43,276 nucleotides of DNA from a virus, in the IMG/VR virus record IMGVR_UViG_3300018057_000020, positions 1-43,276 of that record; one strand, given 5' to 3'. The position numbers and the translations under genes were made by a program. This document shows, piece by piece, positions 1 to 43,276 of this stretch (its first letter is position 1; every line of letters begins with the position of its first letter). A model generated the notes under the pieces. It was not told the origin of the DNA, searched no databases, and saw nothing but the letters and a program-made list of their open reading frames with translations.

Positions 1-78
1 AAGAAACACTTTGCGATGGAAGGGCCAGATCTGGCAGGCGGCGGCTGGGTAACTGGCAAAGGGAACAAGGACAATTAA
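1..78 (+). CDS. C-terminal end of small Gly/Lys-rich protein (complete copy at 43019-43231)
   Basis: The first 25 codons read in frame to a TAA at 76-78 and match the last residues of the complete 70-residue protein encoded at 43019-43231. This is the same gene cut by the contig start. See the complete copy for the description. Confidence 0.85.
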   Translation, partial: KKHFAMEGPDLAGGGWVTGKGNKDN

Positions 79-123
79 GATGAAGAAGAAAAAAGCTTCT
101 CATGGGGGCGCTGGGAAAGCTGT
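1..123. repeat. Terminal direct repeat (left copy), contig closes to a circle
   Basis: Bases 1-123 are identical to 43154-43276. A perfect repeat of this size at both ends of a contig is the usual mark of a circular assembly from a circular or circularly permuted genome. It makes the real genome about 43,153 bp. A true short terminal redundancy is the alternative. The repeat lies inside coding sequence (end of one gene, start of the next), which favours the assembly explanation. Confidence 0.9.
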
Positions 124-19807: not shown

Positions 19808-20344
19808 CTAATCTTTAATGAATTTAATCAGCCCTTTTGTCTTCATGAAGGCCATCTCTAAGACTATGACATCCTTCCGGCAGTGATCTACGATGTAGTC
19901 CAAGGACACCTTATCCCCCGTCATTGCCTTGATCCATTGATCTCCTTGCATCTGGGTTTTCTCAATCGGAAGTCCCAAATGCTTTGCAAGGGCGTCCAAG
20001 CTCCAGTTACTCAGCTTGAGTTGGAACTTGCTGGTAAAGAACAAATCAATATGCTTCTTTCCAATGATTGGCTTCATGTCATATTTTATCAGGCGGGCAT
20101 TCAGAAATGGGATGTCAAAGCGTCGCCCGTTGTAGCTTACCAGAATGTCTGCTTCCTCTAGCTCTTCTCGGATTAAGCGAGCCAGTTCAATATCATTCCA
20201 AGGCTCCTTCTTATATTGTGGCATTCGATCAATTCTATAGAGTTTAACTGTCTTCTCTCCGAAGGTCTTGAATCCTCCCGCCAGCAACATCCCAAAGTTC
20301 GCACTTAAATTACTGCATTCCAAATCAAAAGTCATTATATTCAT
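19808..20344 (-). CDS. RNase H-fold 3'-5' exonuclease (DEDD, YprB-like)
   Basis: This 178-residue protein shows the DEDD exonuclease motifs. Exo I is FDLE (D7, E9), Exo II is SYNGRRFDIPFL (D77), D100 lies in a strand before the third block, and Exo III has a YIVDHCRKDVIVLE pattern with D158. The layout resembles the predicted RNase H-like family of YprB. It could remove 3' ends of DNA or RNA and may proofread or process primers for the polymerase. Its ATG overlaps the stop of the 57-residue gene (ATGA), and M4 is an alternative start. Confidence 0.8.
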   Translation of the reverse strand: MNIMTFDLECSNLSANFGMLLAGGFKTFGEKTVKLYRIDRMPQYKKEPWNDIELARLIREELEEADILVSYNGRRFDIPFLNARLIKYDMKPIIGKKHIDLFFTSKFQLKLSNWSLDALAKHLGLPIEKTQMQGDQWIKAMTGDKVSLDYIVDHCRKDVIVLEMAFMKTKGLIKFIKD

Positions 20345-20514
20345 TCATCCTCCTTTCCAGAGACGATTGCATCTACCATTTCATATGGGATACGAACTAG
20401 TTTACTTGCCATGTCACTACGTTGGTCTATCTCAATGAATGTAATGTATGCACTATCGTCATCATGAAGTGCAATGAAAGTTTCCCAATCTCGTTCTCGT
20501 ACTATTGCCTTCAC
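20341..20514 (-). CDS. Small acidic hypothetical protein
   Basis: This 57-codon gene starts at a GTG that overlaps the stop of the upstream ATPase gene (GTGA) and ends in an ATGA overlap with the exonuclease gene. The upstream GAGGAAGAGGA gives a ribosome site. The product has an alternating strand pattern (ETFIALHDDDSAYITFIEID) and a C-terminal amphipathic helix. No domain is recognised. The double coupling makes it a convincing gene in spite of its size. Confidence 0.6.
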   Translation of the reverse strand: MKAIVRERDWETFIALHDDDSAYITFIEIDQRSDMASKLVRIPYEMVDAIVSGKEDE

Positions 20515-21689
20515 TCCTCTTCCTCCTCTTGTTCTATTAAAGTATACTTCACTCCTGCCCCTCGCTTTGCAAGGGGGGTTGAAAAAATCTTCCGGCTCTC
20601 TTCCAAGTATTGTAGAACTTTCCCGAGATCTTCTGCATCCATCCGTCTCCAGTTCTTCTGATAGATCTGAGACTTCTTGAGTGTGTGGCCCTTGGCATTC
20701 TTGATCTGTTTGAGAACGGCATCTGCATACTTGAGGGTCGGGACGGAGCCAAGTAATTCATACGCCCGAACCATATTTGCTTCCATGTTATCCAGCAGCG
20801 CCAGCGCCGTCGTGAGATCTTCCTTCTCAACCACCAACTCATCCTTCTTTCCTGCCGCCAGGACCATCCCGAGCTTGATGACGTAGTCATGCTTCCTTCC
20901 ATAGAAGCCATTAAGCACGCCATCCGGTGGGAACTTGAACTCCTTCTCATACCAACGGTCCCACCAGTCCTTTGCCTTGGGTGACAGCACCATCTCCCCA
21001 TGCATCTCCTTCCGAATATGCATCAGGTCATTTACTAGAATCCTCTCCATCTCCGGGTCTTTGCTCGGCCATCCCACCTTTTCCCTCGGGAACTCCTGAA
21101 ATATGATATGTAAACGTGGAACGAAGCCGCTCCCTGTGGCTGCACCAGGGATAATTTCTGCAAAGTCCGTAGGTGTGGTGGCGGCAAGTATATTGACGCA
21201 AGTGTTGACTAGGAAGTCCACTCCTGCTGTCTTCGTCCGATTCTCGAATGTCGTAGGACATGTGAAGAGTCTCGTCAGTGTAGTGATGACTCCCTTGTGC
21301 GTGTCCTCTGTCGTCAGGAACGTCTTTAGTTCGTCCGCCCATATGAGCATCTCCGAGTTTCCGGTCTCCTTAGAAATATTATGAAGCTGTCTAAGAAGAT
21401 CAGCATTTGTAATCCGCTCGGCAGAGACTGAAACGACCTTTGCTTTTTCCAATAGCTCCCGAGCGATGTCGACTGCCACTGACTTCCGACACTCCGCGCT
21501 TGCAGCAAGGAGGATAATGTAATGGTTCGGATAGATTTGATAAAACCCCCTATTCAACCAGATGTTCCGCCCCAGGGTGGCGCTCATCACGCTGATCCAC
21601 GACCATGCGTGAAACATGTCCGGGCTTTCTTGGTTCTGAGTATAGTCTAGGTAAAGCTGCATCAGATCGCCCTTCCACATGCGGGCCAT
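20511..21689 (-). CDS. DUF3987-like P-loop protein with degenerate Walker A
   Basis: The 392-residue protein resembles DUF3987-type ATPases that accompany phage replication genes. Residues 25-50 (FHAWSWISVMSATLGRNIWL) are followed by the P-loop position, ASAECRKS (63-70). Lysine and serine are kept but both P-loop glycines are replaced by A and R. A Walker B-like strand MLIWADE (114-120) keeps the acidic pair. NILAATTPTDF near 166 could be sensor 1. The C-terminal 70 residues look like a winged-helix domain (KGHTLKKSQIYQKNWRRMDAE) and end in five glutamates. AGGAGG stands 6 bases before the ATG. It may load or unwind at the origin, in the absence of an ordinary helicase. ATP binding is uncertain. 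Confidence 0.65.
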   Translation of the reverse strand: MARMWKGDLMQLYLDYTQNQESPDMFHAWSWISVMSATLGRNIWLNRGFYQIYPNHYIILLAASAECRKSVAVDIARELLEKAKVVSVSAERITNADLLRQLHNISKETGNSEMLIWADELKTFLTTEDTHKGVITTLTRLFTCPTTFENRTKTAGVDFLVNTCVNILAATTPTDFAEIIPGAATGSGFVPRLHIIFQEFPREKVGWPSKDPEMERILVNDLMHIRKEMHGEMVLSPKAKDWWDRWYEKEFKFPPDGVLNGFYGRKHDYVIKLGMVLAAGKKDELVVEKEDLTTALALLDNMEANMVRAYELLGSVPTLKYADAVLKQIKNAKGHTLKKSQIYQKNWRRMDAEDLGKVLQYLEESRKIFSTPLAKRGAGVKYTLIEQEEEEE

Positions 21690-22014
21690 AGGTTCCTCCT
21701 AATCTTTCATCGACGAGTCCCTCCAGAAGAAGTAAATAGTTGATTGCGTCTGTACTCTTCTCTCTGAATTGGGAGAGCACGATCTCTCGGCCCTTGTCTA
21801 TGTCTTCTACAAGATCAAGCAAAGAGATCAAATGCTTCACCATCATTCCCAGAAGAGCCTTCTCTGGTACTACGCCAAGAAGTTGACCTGCCCGTTTGAA
21901 CGCCCCGAGGCGATCTTCCCCTCTCTGATATTCCGGCCCTTTCTTCTCCCGCATGAGATTGAGGCACTCCTTGACTCTCTGTTCTGAGAGTTCATCAAAC
22001 CGCTTTGAATCCAT
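21550..22014 (-). CDS. DUF1599 / nucleotide-modification-associated (Nmad1)-like protein
   Basis: This gene encodes 154 residues. The first ~105 have the helical pattern of DUF1599/Nmad-type proteins: KKGPEYQRGEDRLGAFKRAG, then MMVKHLISLLDL (K60, H61), and a closing STDAINYLLLLEGL (D89, N92, Y93). These proteins have been linked to phage nucleotide metabolism or modification. The last ~46 residues overlap the start of the ATPase gene in another frame by 140 bases and look like run-through. So either a stop was lost or the overlap is real. It is 20 bases inside the end of the polymerase gene. Confidence 0.6.
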   Translation of the reverse strand: MDSKRFDELSEQRVKECLNLMREKKGPEYQRGEDRLGAFKRAGQLLGVVPEKALLGMMVKHLISLLDLVEDIDKGREIVLSQFREKSTDAINYLLLLEGLVDERLGGTYGPHVEGRSDAALPRLYSEPRKPGHVSRMVVDQRDERHPGAEHLVE

Positions 22015-24409
22015 TGTATATTCCTTTCAGTTTCATATCTCTCCAAGACTTTTCAGAAGTCTTAATCTCAGTTGGTATAACCAATGGCTCCCCATCAATG
22101 ACCACTGGTACAGCCAACTCTTCAACCATAATTTGAACCACTTCATTTTCCATCTCCTTTGGTGCATGCACAAGCATGGCATCGTGGATCTGGAGGAGGA
22201 GCGCCGCTGGTGCACGAAGCCTCAGATCGACCCGCACCATCGCACGGTTCATATAGTCAACGCACATACTCTGAGGGTATTGGGCATATCCCTTCCTGAA
22301 CAACTCCTCTCCCATTCTGCCAAGAAATAGCCGCCGACGATTGAAGGCAGTCACCAGCAGTCGAGTCTTTCTCAGTTGGTCTTGTACTGATCTCTGGTAC
22401 TCTCCAATCGCCGGGCAGCTTTTAAAAAAGAGATCTCTAAGTGCTTTGGCCTTCGCCACTGTGATGCCAGTTGATACGTCAACTACCCGTCCATCTGGAA
22501 GCGTGAGTTCCTTATGAGCCATCATCTCGGCCATATGTAATGGTCCAAGACCGTACCCACATCCCAACACCACAGGCTTTATCATGTCACGCTCTTCCTT
22601 AGAGATCTCAGAGGGCGGTTTGCCTAGCATCCTTGATCCATGCCAGCGGTAGATGTCTTCTCCATTCCGAACGGCCTCTATGGTTGCATAGTCTTTTGCT
22701 TTCCATGCGAGGATCAGGGCTTCCGCGAACTTGAGATCAGCCTCAAGTAAGATATATCCATGCTCGGGAATAATAAGTTTTCTAAACCAGGGGGGAGCGG
22801 TTTGACTGTTCCATCCCTCTCCGAAGAGAGATTCCTTAGATGAGAGGCGACCAGTTTCTGTGCCAGTAATAGAGTATTGAGTTCTAAGTCGCCCATCGAA
22901 ACTGAGCACAACGTCAGCATATGTCGATTTCTTTTTCTCAAGGTCACGAACATCGAGTATGCTGGATAGGTTTTCATGTCCTTTGATCTTCGCAAGCTTC
23001 TTAATTGCTTCTTCATCAACTGTCACCTTCTTCGTCTTTCGGTCGAACTGCTTCGGGAGCTTCAGAGTCTCGTAAAGGTGCGTCGCTAGTTGCTTGTTGC
23101 TCCGCAAGTTGAATGAGTCGGGCAATCCAATCAATGCTTTTGCTTTCTTTTCCTTCCGGGCGATTAGGAAGGTCAGAGCTTTCTGGAGTCTCTCCTTTCG
23201 CTCCCGGTCTACTGGCACTCCCCGAAGGCCCATCTTTAGGATGGTATGGAATAAAGGCATCACATGGGTCAGAAATTCCGACTCGATCTTGAATTCCTGT
23301 AACTCTGAGCGCAGTATGTATGCAATTTCTAACGTACATGCGGCATCTAAAGCATTGTATCTCCATCTCGTCTCCAGTGGCGCTCCCTTGTAGTTCATCC
23401 ATTTGTAGTATGGCTCCTTCGTGTAAATGCTAGTGAGATACGCAAGATCGTGCGGGAGTTCTGGATAGAGAAAATGGTGTGCAACCATCGTATCGAAGGC
23501 CAATCTTCGAACGGGGAGGCCATTCCCCAAGAGCATCTGCATGTCAAAGGCCCCATTTTGAGCAACCAGTCCTTCATGATTCCAGAGAACCTCCCTTATC
23601 AGATCATCAGCCCACGGATTATCACGACTGATGGAAATAGAGAAGCTAGGATCAAAAGAGAAACTAATACAATCAATCCAATTCCCACGAGTCTCAGCAT
23701 CGAACGCCAGAAGGGGCGCGGCTTTAGCTTCTTCAAAGAACCCTCTAGCAATATCTTCTCTCTGCGTAACCTCAAGATTTCTGTCTGGATGAACAATTTC
23801 GCGAGTTCCACTCTCTTGCTTTGCCCTACGTGTATCAAGTATGGTTGTAAGTCTCGCGCTCCCGTATGTGTATTTACTAACCGCTTCACCTTCCCTCTCC
23901 TTCTTCGCCGTCTTATCCGGCAGTCTCAAGATGTAAGCTGGATGGAAAGTGCCGATCACCTTCCGGCCCTCCCACTCCAGGATGCTTCCACGCCAGGAAG
24001 TTATTTCTGATGCATGAGGTACAAGCGTACTGAGAGGTACGCCACCAAGAGAAAGAATACAAGTTGGATTAATAGCACGAAGCTCGGCTTTAGCCCACTC
24101 TTGACATTCCTCCAACGTGATCCCATATTCACTCAGCCTCTTCAGATCGTTCTCGGGTGGGCGGGTCGGGACTACATTCATGAGGTACACTTCCGACCTT
24201 TGTATATGAGAAGCCTTGAGGATGCTCTCCAGCACTACTCCCGCGTTTACTTTCTCTCCGGGCCGCCTCGGTGCAAAGGGCCGCATCTGTAGCACTTCCT
24301 CTGCACCCAAGGCTTCTCCTAGGAGGACAAGCTTCGCAGATCGAGGCCCCTCGCCCTCCACTACTGGAAGGCCCTTTTCCTTCAGCTTCTTCAACAGTGT
24401 GTCTGACAT
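21995..24409 (-). CDS. Uracil-DNA glycosylase / family A DNA polymerase fusion
   Basis: This 804-residue fusion has three modules. Residues 25-165 are a UDG-superfamily domain: motif 1 is GEALGAEE (31-38), NVVPTRPPEND lies at 78-88, and motif 2 is FHPAYILR (155-162). There is no Cys before 102, so the family 4 iron-sulphur cluster is absent. Residues 230-380 are the 3'-5' exonuclease, with D237/E239, N285/D289 and Y351/D355 in place. Residues 390-804 are the PolA domain. Motif A is LEADLKFAEA (D558), motif B is R607-x3-K611-x3-L615-x3-Y619, and motif C is IHDA (D743). L615 stands where E. coli Pol I has F762, and A744 replaces the usual Glu of HDE. A UDG-like N-terminus on a phage polymerase is known from SPO1. 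GGAG precedes the ATG. Confidence 0.9.
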   Translation of the reverse strand: MSDTLLKKLKEKGLPVVEGEGPRSAKLVLLGEALGAEEVLQMRPFAPRRPGEKVNAGVVLESILKASHIQRSEVYLMNVVPTRPPENDLKRLSEYGITLEECQEWAKAELRAINPTCILSLGGVPLSTLVPHASEITSWRGSILEWEGRKVIGTFHPAYILRLPDKTAKKEREGEAVSKYTYGSARLTTILDTRRAKQESGTREIVHPDRNLEVTQREDIARGFFEEAKAAPLLAFDAETRGNWIDCISFSFDPSFSISISRDNPWADDLIREVLWNHEGLVAQNGAFDMQMLLGNGLPVRRLAFDTMVAHHFLYPELPHDLAYLTSIYTKEPYYKWMNYKGAPLETRWRYNALDAACTLEIAYILRSELQEFKIESEFLTHVMPLFHTILKMGLRGVPVDRERKERLQKALTFLIARKEKKAKALIGLPDSFNLRSNKQLATHLYETLKLPKQFDRKTKKVTVDEEAIKKLAKIKGHENLSSILDVRDLEKKKSTYADVVLSFDGRLRTQYSITGTETGRLSSKESLFGEGWNSQTAPPWFRKLIIPEHGYILLEADLKFAEALILAWKAKDYATIEAVRNGEDIYRWHGSRMLGKPPSEISKEERDMIKPVVLGCGYGLGPLHMAEMMAHKELTLPDGRVVDVSTGITVAKAKALRDLFFKSCPAIGEYQRSVQDQLRKTRLLVTAFNRRRLFLGRMGEELFRKGYAQYPQSMCVDYMNRAMVRVDLRLRAPAALLLQIHDAMLVHAPKEMENEVVQIMVEELAVPVVIDGEPLVIPTEIKTSEKSWRDMKLKGIYNGFKAV

Positions 24410-24554
24410 CGTTCTCCAAATCTTGGATTAGCCCTAGGAGATAGCTCCTAGCTTGAGTTGTCTTATATCCTCGGGGAAGAATCTTATCAAGCTTTTCCCA
24501 TCGCTTGAAGGTAGCTTCGTCCACTCGGATTGCTATGATCGGTGGTCGCTTCAT
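24129..24554 (-). CDS. Possible small DNA-binding protein overlapping the polymerase gene
   Basis: The frame starts at an ATG that overlaps the previous stop and runs for 141 codons, but only the first ~48 lie outside the polymerase gene. Those residues (IIAIRVDEATFKRWEKLDKI then YKTTQARSYLLGLIQDLEN) look like a ribbon-helix-helix-type strand plus two helices. After that the composition becomes R/S/G/C-rich, typical of out-of-frame reading. A true product probably ends earlier through a lost stop, or is translated with an unusual tail. I support the N-terminal part only. Confidence 0.4.
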   Translation of the reverse strand: MKRPPIIAIRVDEATFKRWEKLDKILPRGYKTTQARSYLLGLIQDLENDVRHTVEEAEGKGPSSSGGRGASICEACPPRRSLGCRGSATDAALCTEAARRESKRGSSAGEHPQGFSYTKVGSVPHECSPDPPTRERSEEAE

Positions 24555-25618: not shown

Positions 25619-25759
25619 TTACTTCTTTTCTGGCAGAATTAGTTCTGCACGAACGGCCTTTTCATTTGGATAGAGATATAGATCTTTCTTCTTAAAGCCA
25701 AGACTCCCAGTGTAAGTAATCTTCTTTGTCTTCTTATCTACACCAACCCATATCTTCAC
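25619..25759 (-). CDS. Tiny basic protein
   Basis: This 46-codon gene starts at a GTG overlapping the stop of the Sak4-like gene (GTGA), with GGAGGTGGAG just upstream. The product is Lys-rich with two predicted strands (MKIWVGVDKKTKKITYTG). The function is unknown; it lies between two recombination-type genes. Confidence 0.55.
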   Translation of the reverse strand: MKIWVGVDKKTKKITYTGSLGFKKKDLYLYPNEKAVRAELILPEKK

Positions 25760-26532
25760 TTCTTCTCCACCTCCTTTAAGAACTTCTCAAGATATCCATA
25801 GTCAGGATCAATGAACTTCGGCAGCTTCCCCATCTTGTCCTTCCTGCTGCCAAGGAAAGTCAAGAAGCCATTCGGCTCCGGTTTGGTATTCCACATGTAT
25901 TTGAGTGTGCTTCCTGCCATCTGTGTCTCCGAGCAGAAGATCTCACTGAAAAGCTTCGGCATCAGAGGGCCGAGCTTCCGCCCTATGGACATCGGAAGCG
26001 TCTTCGTCCGGTGTGTGATCTCATCTTTCTCAGTATCCAAGTGTGCCGTCAGAATCACATTCTTCCCAAAGCTCATCAGCTTCCCAATAGCTCCAGTGAC
26101 CTTCCTCACCAGAACATTGTAGTCCTGAAGCTGGATCTCTGCATCCGCCTTTCGAGCACCACCGCTCGCCGCGATGAACTCCAGATAGGCATAGCTGAAC
26201 GGCTCTAGCGTCTCGACTACCAAGTTGCTTACACCTTCTTGATGGCTTTCGAACCACTGTACATCTTCAATGAACGCCTGAGCTTTATCCTTGCTTGGTC
26301 TAATACGAGCATCAGCTTCAAAGCTCGGAGCGATCAAACCATACTGCACCACTAGAATACCGGCTCCATTAGCGGTACAGCCCTTTAATCGTGGAACTTC
26401 AACACAGGGAACGATTAAAGAGCTTACGTTATCTGGAGGTTCGAAGTTGAAGATGATGGTGTTTCCTTTGAGGGTTGAGAGCGCCCTCGTCTTCCCCATG
26501 TGGGAGTCGCCCACGTTTAGCATTGTGAACAT
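25756..26532 (-). CDS. Sak4-like RecA-fold recombination ATPase
   Basis: This 258-residue P-loop protein has a Walker A motif GDSHMGKT (8-15) near the N-terminus and a Walker B-like LVVETLE (104-110). It also has an NVILTAHLDTEKDE segment, typical of the short RecA-fold ATPases (Sak4 / AAA_24) in phages. These promote single-strand annealing with a partner SSB. The ATG follows AAGGCGGTAAC. Downstream neighbours are a 46-residue gene and a possible SSB, and a Cas4-like nuclease lies upstream. Together they form a plausible recombination-dependent replication set. Confidence 0.8.
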   Translation of the reverse strand: MFTMLNVGDSHMGKTRALSTLKGNTIIFNFEPPDNVSSLIVPCVEVPRLKGCTANGAGILVVQYGLIAPSFEADARIRPSKDKAQAFIEDVQWFESHQEGVSNLVVETLEPFSYAYLEFIAASGGARKADAEIQLQDYNVLVRKVTGAIGKLMSFGKNVILTAHLDTEKDEITHRTKTLPMSIGRKLGPLMPKLFSEIFCSETQMAGSTLKYMWNTKPEPNGFLTFLGSRKDKMGKLPKFIDPDYGYLEKFLKEVEKK

Positions 26533-27123: not shown

Positions 27124-28221
27124 TCACCGCCTTTCATCTAGTGGACTCCAGAAACTCTGCTCGAAGTTGCTCTCCAGGAACTCTTCCCTCAAGCCTGGGG
27201 GCGCTTGGCAGATAGGCCGATAGGGGCAACCGCCATAGTTTGAACAGCTTCGCGTCCGCTTCGGCCACCAGTCCCAGCCGCCCTGGAAGGAGACTAGGTT
27301 AAGCACCTTACCTCTGACTTCTCTCTCCCACTCTTCCAAATCCCACGGATTCAGATCTATCGTCTCACGATTCACCACTTCCCGTGGCACTGGCTCAGGA
27401 TCGCCCTTCTTTCTTCTCTTGCCCTTAACTTGGCCGTCCACGGAGCTTTTGTAAATGCCCGCCATAGTAAGAAGGCCCCGTCTAATGTCCTGATGAAAGA
27501 GGGAGCGAGCCGCATAGACATAGCCTGTAACTTGGGCGTTTGGGTTCGCCACAAAGAGCCAAGGGCTAGTAGAAGTCTTCTCTTCATCAATAACATACTG
27601 CTGCGCGCCTCCCTTCTCTCTCCCAAAGCCATCTATGAAGCCAGCATAGCGGTAAGGGCAGCCGGGAATGTCTAACACGAACTGCTGCTCTCCTCCGAGC
27701 CAGTCCCAGTCTTCATTCTGGAAGAGCCGTGCGCGGGCAGTCAAGAGTTCATGTCCTTTAGCATACGTTCTAACCTCTCTCGACTCGTCTTCGTCCTCTC
27801 CTCCATCTCCTTCATCCACATAGCTCGCATAAGCTGCATTGAAGGCTTCGAGGGCGGCAGGAAGGCTTTTACCACTCTTATACCACACGCCCACACCTTC
27901 GTGATAGGCTTTACCAAAGTCCAGCGCACGGTGTTCTCCTCTCGTCCTGGCTCCATAAGCAAAGGCATACTGGCCCTTCCTGGGGCACTCATCGAGAGTA
28001 CCCAGGATGGTTGCATCGACAACTTCAATCAGTCTCTTCTTCATACTTCCCCTCCTGGGGCACTCATCGAGAGTACCCAGGATGGTTGCATCGACAACGT
28101 CCGTCAGAAGCTCATGGCCATCAAATTCAAACGCTTCAACTCCACTCCTTACAGCTTGATTATAGGCCGCCCGGAGTGCCTTTGCCTTCTCTCTCGTCAT
28201 CTCCAACATTTCCCCGGCCAT
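27124..28221 (-). CDS. Cas4/RecB-like PD-(D/E)XK nuclease with Fe-S cysteines
   Basis: This gene encodes 365 residues. The first cluster cysteine lies in DECPRKGQYAF (C79), followed by the RecB-family AYHEGV histidine (H107). The nuclease core follows: YAGFIDGFG (D197) and VIDEEKTS (E214, K215). The C-terminal CSNYGGCPYRPIC brings C326, C332 and C338, completing a 4-Cys iron-sulphur set as in Cas4 and AddB. It would act as an exonuclease in replication or recombination. Residues 42-66 repeat almost exactly as 67-91: a 46-base perfect repeat at a 75-base interval duplicated the segment VVDATILGTLDECPR in frame. The upstream copy puts a second CPR (C54) before the real one. No CRISPR locus is present. 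Confidence 0.8.
   Translation of the reverse strand: MAGEMLEMTREKAKALRAAYNQAVRSGVEAFEFDGHELLTDVVDATILGTLDECPRRGSMKKRLIEVVDATILGTLDECPRKGQYAFAYGARTRGEHRALDFGKAYHEGVGVWYKSGKSLPAALEAFNAAYASYVDEGDGGEDEDESREVRTYAKGHELLTARARLFQNEDWDWLGGEQQFVLDIPGCPYRYAGFIDGFGREKGGAQQYVIDEEKTSTSPWLFVANPNAQVTGYVYAARSLFHQDIRRGLLTMAGIYKSSVDGQVKGKRRKKGDPEPVPREVVNRETIDLNPWDLEEWEREVRGKVLNLVSFQGGWDWWPKRTRSCSNYGGCPYRPICQAPPGLREEFLESNFEQSFWSPLDERR
27978..28023. repeat. 46-bp direct repeat, copy 1 (within Cas4-like gene)
   Basis: This stretch is identical to 28053-28098, 75 bases away, so the repeat keeps the reading frame (25 codons). This copy encodes the cysteine motif that continues into the nuclease. The complete identity means the duplication is recent, or that the assembly joined two strain variants. 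Confidence 0.9.
28053..28098. repeat. 46-bp direct repeat, copy 2 (within Cas4-like gene)
   Basis: This is the second identical copy, nearer the gene start. Between the copies an AGGGGAAGT followed by ATG (reverse strand) could serve as an internal start at codon 60, giving a protein without the first copy. Confidence 0.9.
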
Positions 28222-32963: not shown

Positions 32964-33005
32964 AAGACCTCCTTGAGTTGACTTTGGACAACCCTTGTGG
33001 TTTAA

Positions 33006-33036
33006 TAAGGGCGGTCCCGAAGGACAAACGCCCTTA
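33006..33036 (-). ncRNA. Stable nested hairpin with UUCG tetraloop
   Basis: Read leftward, TAAGGGCG pairs with CGCCCTTA, and inside it GTCC-TTCG-GGAC forms a C(UUCG)G tetraloop with a 3-base internal bulge. It lies between the 36-residue TM gene and the 55-residue gene. The short AT-rich tail after it gives only a weak terminator, so it may be an attenuator or a processing site. Confidence 0.55.
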
Positions 33037-33114
33037 CCCATCGCCTATTCTTGAATGGCCCATGCGGGCGGAAGTCAGCTACCCTTCCGTTTCTCCCGCT
33101 TTAAAGGGCCAAGG

Positions 33115-43018: not shown

Positions 43019-43231
43019 ATGTCTTACACGGATGCGAAAGTAAAGCACCACAAGCTCCCTATGTCTTCTCCAGTTCAGGGGAATGACGCGCGGGGCGGAC
43101 TGGTAGAAGGTGGAAAGTCCCCTAAGTTCGGGAAGACCGAAGGAAAGGGAACTAAGAAACACTTTGCGATGGAAGGGCCAGATCTGGCAGGCGGCGGCTG
43201 GGTAACTGGCAAAGGGAACAAGGACAATTAA
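43019..43231 (+). CDS. Small Gly/Lys-rich basic protein
   Basis: This gene encodes 70 residues with a perfect AAGGAGG site. It is hydrophilic, rich in G, K and H, with no hydrophobic core, so probably disordered; the last 25 residues are also seen at 1-78. Such basic, flexible proteins at the start of a head module may bind DNA or the capsid interior. The function is unknown. Confidence 0.6.
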   Translation: MSYTDAKVKHHKLPMSSPVQGNDARGGLVEGGKSPKFGKTEGKGTKKHFAMEGPDLAGGGWVTGKGNKDN

Positions 43232-43276
43232 GATGAAGAAGAAAAAAGCTTCTCATGGGGGCGCTGGGAAAGCTGT
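43154..43276. repeat. Terminal direct repeat (right copy)
   Basis: It is identical to 1-123. It includes the end of the 70-residue gene and the first 44 bases (from 43233) of the 63-residue gene complete at 80-271. Confidence 0.9.
43233..43276 (+). CDS. Partial copy of the small gene complete at 80-271
   Basis: This is the start of the 63-residue gene, cut by the contig end. It matches bases 80-123 exactly and so is the same gene, seen twice because the contig ends overlap. Confidence 0.85.
   Translation, partial: MKKKKASHGGAGKA

Follow-up and report, generated by a model that had tools for sequence, protein, structure and literature searches.

A phage family A DNA polymerase with an N-terminal uracil glycosylase domain that may serve as a DNA-holding module

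Fusions of a uracil glycosylase (UDG) domain with a PolA polymerase are already known from phages SPO1, Serbin and Lebethron. In gp31 of Bacillus phage SPO1, a UDG-like domain without Fe-S cysteines precedes the exonuclease and PolA domains, and Ser is found at position 883 (conserved polymerase positions are numbered after E. coli Pol I, NC_000913 polA). Viral PolA enzymes fall into groups with Phe, Tyr or Leu at position 762, Leu having been linked to temperate phages (PMC6302109; PMC9069017), and Leu762 is one of three standard viral states. In vaccinia virus, the UDG D4 is part of the polymerase processivity factor, and its role in replication is independent of catalysis (PMC1936997).

We analysed a virus genome, IMG/VR record IMGVR_UViG_3300018057_000020, over its whole length of 43,276 bases (hereafter, the window). 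Judged by identical 123-bp direct terminal repeats (window 1-123 and 43154-43276), the genome of ca. 43 kb is apparently complete. Its base composition (GC 0.47-0.51) is unremarkable. The polymerase gene, its domains and motifs, and the genes that accompany it are located in the window as follows:

21995-24409, minus strand: UDG–3'-5' exonuclease–PolA polymerase, 804 aa, ATG start (open reading frame and Pfam domains)
23900-24355, minus strand: UDG domain PF03167, residues 19-170 (Pfam, E 2e-18)
23297-23764, minus strand: 3'-5' exonuclease domain DNA_pol_A_exo1, residues 216-371 (Pfam, E 7e-9)
22112-23197, minus strand: DNA_pol_A domain, residues 405-766 (Pfam, E 4e-51)
22721-22738, minus strand: motif A core, from catalytic D558 (D705) to E563 (E710) (alignment with E. 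coli Pol I)
22553-22579, minus strand: motif B core KPVVLGCGY with L615 (position 762) and Y619 (position 766) (alignment with E. coli Pol I)
22178-22186, minus strand: motif C HDA, with H742 (H881), catalytic D743 (D882) and A744 (E883) (alignment with E. coli Pol I)
20511-21689, minus strand: DUF3987 / phrog_14296 "DNA primase"-like protein, its gene being conserved downstream of polA in UDG-PolA loci (Pfam, PHROGs)
21550-22014, minus strand: phrog_6802 small protein, between polA and the DUF3987 gene (PHROGs, E 7e-22)
25756-26532, minus strand: AAA_24 / Sak4-like annealing ATPase, in the replication block shared with polA (Pfam, PHROGs)
27124-28221, minus strand: PD-(D/E)XK exonuclease, in the same replication block (Pfam, PHROGs)

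Several other elements were observed. The PD-(D/E)XK exonuclease gene contains an in-frame 59-nt duplication with 75-nt spacing (window 27974-28107), and the protein repeats VVDATILGTLDECPR. A 141-aa open reading frame (24129-24554, minus strand) overlaps the 5' end of polA by 281 nt in a different frame. At its N-terminus it resembles a small DNA-binding protein, and no family match was obtained in Pfam or PHROGs. The genome also codes, probably at 19808-20344 (minus strand), for a further 3'-5' exonuclease of the RNase H-like type (phrog_403, "DNA polymerase exonuclease subunit"), and a Twister-P5 ribozyme match in Rfam lies at 32977-33045 (minus strand; 39.1 bits versus a gathering score of 37.6).

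The DNA_pol_A domain scored 174.6 bits against a cut-off of 34.3, and the full-length predicted model matched Klenow and Bst polymerases. Residues D705, E710, R754, K758, Y766, H881 and D882 of E. coli Pol I are all kept (as D558, E563, R607, K611, Y619, H742 and D743, respectively), as are all six catalytic residues of the exonuclease (D237, E239, N285, D289, Y351 and D355). A preliminary description of the locus had proposed that a UDG domain heads the polymerase, as in SPO1, that Leu replaces Phe762, and that Ala follows the motif C Asp. The Pfam domain order (UDG, exonuclease, PolA) and the predicted UDG fold agree with the first point, and alignment with E. coli Pol I confirmed the other two, with L615 (codon TTG, 22565-22567) at F762 and A744 (codon GCC, 22178-22180) at E883. 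The column of A744 is unshifted; a carboxylate displaced near motif C, an outcome which that description had itself named as refuting, is ruled out by the same alignment. Judged from its sequence, the protein is a family A DNA polymerase of the ordinary phage replicative type, with a UDG domain in front.

From the combination of HDA and Leu762 altered chemistry had also been suggested, and the enzyme might then be crippled, for example a translesion or non-replicative polymerase. In E. coli Pol I, E883 indeed counts as an active-site carboxylate (PMC9324360). However, the essential, metal-binding Asp residues, D558 and D743, are both present, and most of the phage PolA sequences sampled carry Ala or Ser at 883: 30 out of 40 sequences of the Leu762 set (19 Ala and 11 Ser, the other 10 being Glu) and 37 out of 40 other phage and viral sequences (31 Ser and 6 Ala, with 2 Glu and 1 Gln). 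Among phage relatives, the motif C Asp is followed by Ser, Ala or Gln; the SPO1 motif is HDS, and HDA is also found in Serbin, Lebethron, STP12, Hexbug and NoShow. The polymerase of Thermus phage Tt72 naturally carries Ser at this site, and its S616A mutant retains 76% activity, while mutants in the two Asp residues drop to 4% (PMC9324360). Since the catalytic Asp pair is present, Ala or Ser at 883 is common, and Tt72 provides a precedent, altered chemistry need not be invoked, and we consider a crippled polymerase very unlikely.

A PDB sequence search with the UDG domain returned Thermus thermophilus UDG (TthUDGa, 1ui0) as the best match among solved structures (E 7e-22). The structure predicted for residues 1-200 (mean pLDDT 88) also had 1ui0 as its first Foldseek match (E 1.7e-13, TM 0.67-0.69), so the lack of a UDG fold, the second outcome named as refuting, is not the case. 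Three of the four Fe-S cysteines of classical family 4 enzymes are absent: the CxxC pair near the N-terminus is missing and Thr occupies the Cys84 column. The domain had been described as being without Fe-S cysteines, and this stands for the set, with C102 alone persisting near the position of the fourth. Mutagenesis of TthUDGa identified E41, G/A42, E47, F54, N80, N89 and H155 as residues of the uracil pocket or of catalysis (PMC5387724). By residue mapping, all seven positions are present in the window protein, as E32, A33, E38, F45, N78, N87 and H156. The predicted model and this mapping thus describe a family-4-like UDG that resembles TthUDGa in fold and keeps its uracil pocket intact; it differs from TthUDGa in the loss of the three cysteines, in its fusion to a polymerase and in a short insert after the PF motif. 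UdgX, which is recognized by a GEQPG motif A and a KRRIH R-loop (PMC10359453), was considered and rejected; the window protein has GEALG, and KRRIH occurs nowhere in it.

The nearest annotated relatives of the window polymerase are UDG-PolAs of environmental phages, with ca. 27-33% identity. Phage ctMlz233 (MW202489), Microcystis phage Mel-JY34 and Desulfofustis phage LS06-2018-MD01 share with the window the domain order, a downstream DUF3987-like gene and a non-carboxylate residue at 883, but their polymerases have His762 and, in two cases out of three, Asp710, whereas the window has Leu762, Glu710 and Ala883. SPO1 gp31 is far off in the tree; it differs from the window in having Phe762 and a pocket that is degenerate at the equivalents of F54 and N80. 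Searches with peptide patterns revealed no close relatives of the window PolA or DUF3987 protein in IMG/VR and none of the PolA in GTDB genomes, and the window sequence was too divergent for an alignment-based scan for relatives.

Two features of the relatives' loci were recorded separately. In seven loci, the PolA gene has an interruption of 183-877 nt, located either near motif A (L022, L026, L027, L028 and L033), close to the intron position of SPO1 gp31, or at the boundary of the exonuclease domain (L025 and L031). An Rfam search at gathering thresholds found no introns in the interrupted genes, and it missed the known SPO1 intron as well. In Lebethron, Serbin, Hexbug and NoShow (L038, L039, L041 and L044), PolA adjoins dCMP/cytidine deaminase genes, in some cases near thymidylate synthase or dUTPase; no such neighbours were found in the window.

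His at position 762 prevails among the fusions: it is present in 85 of 94 sampled sequences, the window being the sole Leu, and in 30 of 40 relatives retrieved by protein similarity. The pattern K.F.HGT[NH]Y.G, which fixes the His but leaves the UDG domain, Asp710 and Ser883 free, matched 111 IMG/VR loci, all of them PolA. Every one of the 78 open reading frames of at least 700 aa among them had a UDG domain; of these, 58 distinct ones were examined, and Asp710 was present in all 58 and Ser883 in nearly all. A published screen keeps F, L or Y at position 762 only (PMC9069017), and this class would be discarded by such a filter. No paper on a polymerase of this kind was found under the spelling His762 in the part of the literature covered, and the group of UDG-PolA fusions with His762 is little described.

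The Leu762 motif on its own is commonplace in viral PolA. The pattern K.V.LGCGYG matched at least 119 loci, all PolA, and no UDG domain was found among those listed, some open reading frames being clipped by contig ends but most complete at ca. 610-640 aa. None was found in 34 further Leu762 PolA open reading frames obtained with a second, looser Leu pattern. Among the matches listed, ca. 150 sampled Leu762 polymerases in all, the window alone combines Leu762 with a UDG domain.

Two origins of this combination were compared. The window polymerase could belong to the classical Leu762, temperate-type clade (Nasko 2018; Keown 2022) and have gained a UDG domain. It shares with that clade Leu762, an identical motif B core (VVLGCGYG) and the HDA motif, HDA or HDS being found in most clade members. 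The clade members are, however, shorter, lack both a UDG domain and a DUF3987 neighbour, and stand apart in trees. In three trees the window grouped with UDG-PolA sequences at UFBoot of 98-99, in a group containing no members of the Leu762 clade; being a long branch, it took no firm position within the UDG lineage. Of 59 lineage-diagnostic sites, the window is of the UDG/His type at 29, of neither type at 20 and of the Leu type at 10; at three of these ten (762, 764 and 765), the search pattern itself dictates the residue of the Leu set. A DUF3987 homologue lies downstream of polA in 98 of the 111 His762 UDG-PolA loci, as in the window, versus none of the 119 Leu762 loci listed. No tyrosine integrase was matched within the window. 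Constraining the window to the Leu762 set cost 37-46 log-likelihood units, with AU test p values of 0.058 and 0.064. Because these values miss rejection at the 5% level, an independent origin of Leu762 is likely rather than proven, and we regard membership of the classical clade as improbable. With its N-terminal UDG and adjoining primase/helicase-like DUF3987 gene, the window polymerase belongs, as far as these comparisons can tell, to a UDG-PolA/DUF3987 lineage in which His762 is common but not defining, and it most likely gained Leu762 separately from the classical clade. A slow or temperate lifestyle, which had been linked to Leu762 in the preliminary description, has a correlation in the literature behind it (PMC6302109), and the apparently complete genome with no integrase match does not bear it out.

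Across the 94 UDG-PolAs, the uracil pocket is intact in 58, including the window, and broken in 36 (32 of the 85 with His762). Mapped with a single alignment onto a single approximate tree, the losses correspond to ca. 19 changes; residues of the fold, G122 and D192 among them, are invariant. Such repeated loss of an active site, with the fold retained, speaks for a non-catalytic function of the UDG domain. The vaccinia D4/A20 system is similar in that a UDG resides within a viral polymerase holoenzyme and its catalysis is dispensable for that role (PMC1936997); it differs in that D4 is of another UDG family and a separate polypeptide, and works with a family B polymerase, so the analogy is one of role only. 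By this analogy, the pattern suggests that the UDG domain mainly helps the enzyme to hold DNA.

The intact pocket of the window protein also bears on two uracil-based explanations. The domain could be an active glycosylase coupled to replication. It would then rid the phage template or competing DNA of uracil as the polymerase advances, and repair would be the reason for its retention. All seven pocket positions are in place, and the 58 intact pockets among the sampled fusions are expected of a working enzyme. On the other hand, the pocket was broken repeatedly while the domain persisted, and uracil excision at an advancing fork would create an abasic block in the template. Moreover, neither dUTPase (PF00692) nor dCMP deaminase (PF00383) was matched within the window, and AP endonuclease, ligase and Ugi were not found among its scanned gene products. 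We therefore consider repair as the purpose of the domain unlikely. Thymidylate synthase was likewise not found among the scanned products, and the presence of genes for uracil-containing or modified-T DNA was rejected, this enzyme, dUTPase and dCMP deaminase all being unmatched.

Archaeal family B polymerases sense uracil by reading ahead, whereupon the polymerase stalls, and the UDG domain could be a functionally similar sensor. An intact pocket fused to a polymerase would suit such a role, and the suggestion of uracil sensing during copying made in the preliminary description is in this respect possible for the window. The recurrent pocket decay argues against it as a general role of the domain, since this kind of sensing would fail in relatives whose pocket is broken, and genes of uracil-related metabolism were not found in the window genome. 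A read-ahead sensor thus appears to us quite improbable. The window UDG itself is probably still glycosylase-competent, as expected from its intact pocket.

The reading that we favour, and consider probable, is that of a standard replicative PolA with the UDG as a DNA-holding module and an independently acquired Leu762. The polymerase would copy phage DNA by the standard two-metal mechanism via D558 and D743; A744, beside the second Asp, would be neutral, and L615 would tune nucleotide handling by the O-helix. The N-terminal UDG would act as a processivity or template-scanning module, its role being comparable to that of vaccinia D4, and in the window phage, with its complete pocket, it would probably also bind and excise uracil. 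For the family as a whole we propose, tentatively and with less assurance than for the window, that widespread phage polymerases with His762 and Asp710 use an often catalytically dead UDG as their own DNA clamp, the window member having independently acquired Leu762 and kept the pocket.

With Leu762 apparently of more than one origin, and the His762 class dropped by filters that keep F, L or Y, residue 762 alone is an unsafe marker of clade or lifestyle. The wider pattern of His762 and pocket loss is a more interesting lead than the residues for which the window had been flagged. Should the UDG domain prove to be a built-in clamp, these phages would have reached a poxvirus-like solution, in which a glycosylase has turned into a processivity factor.
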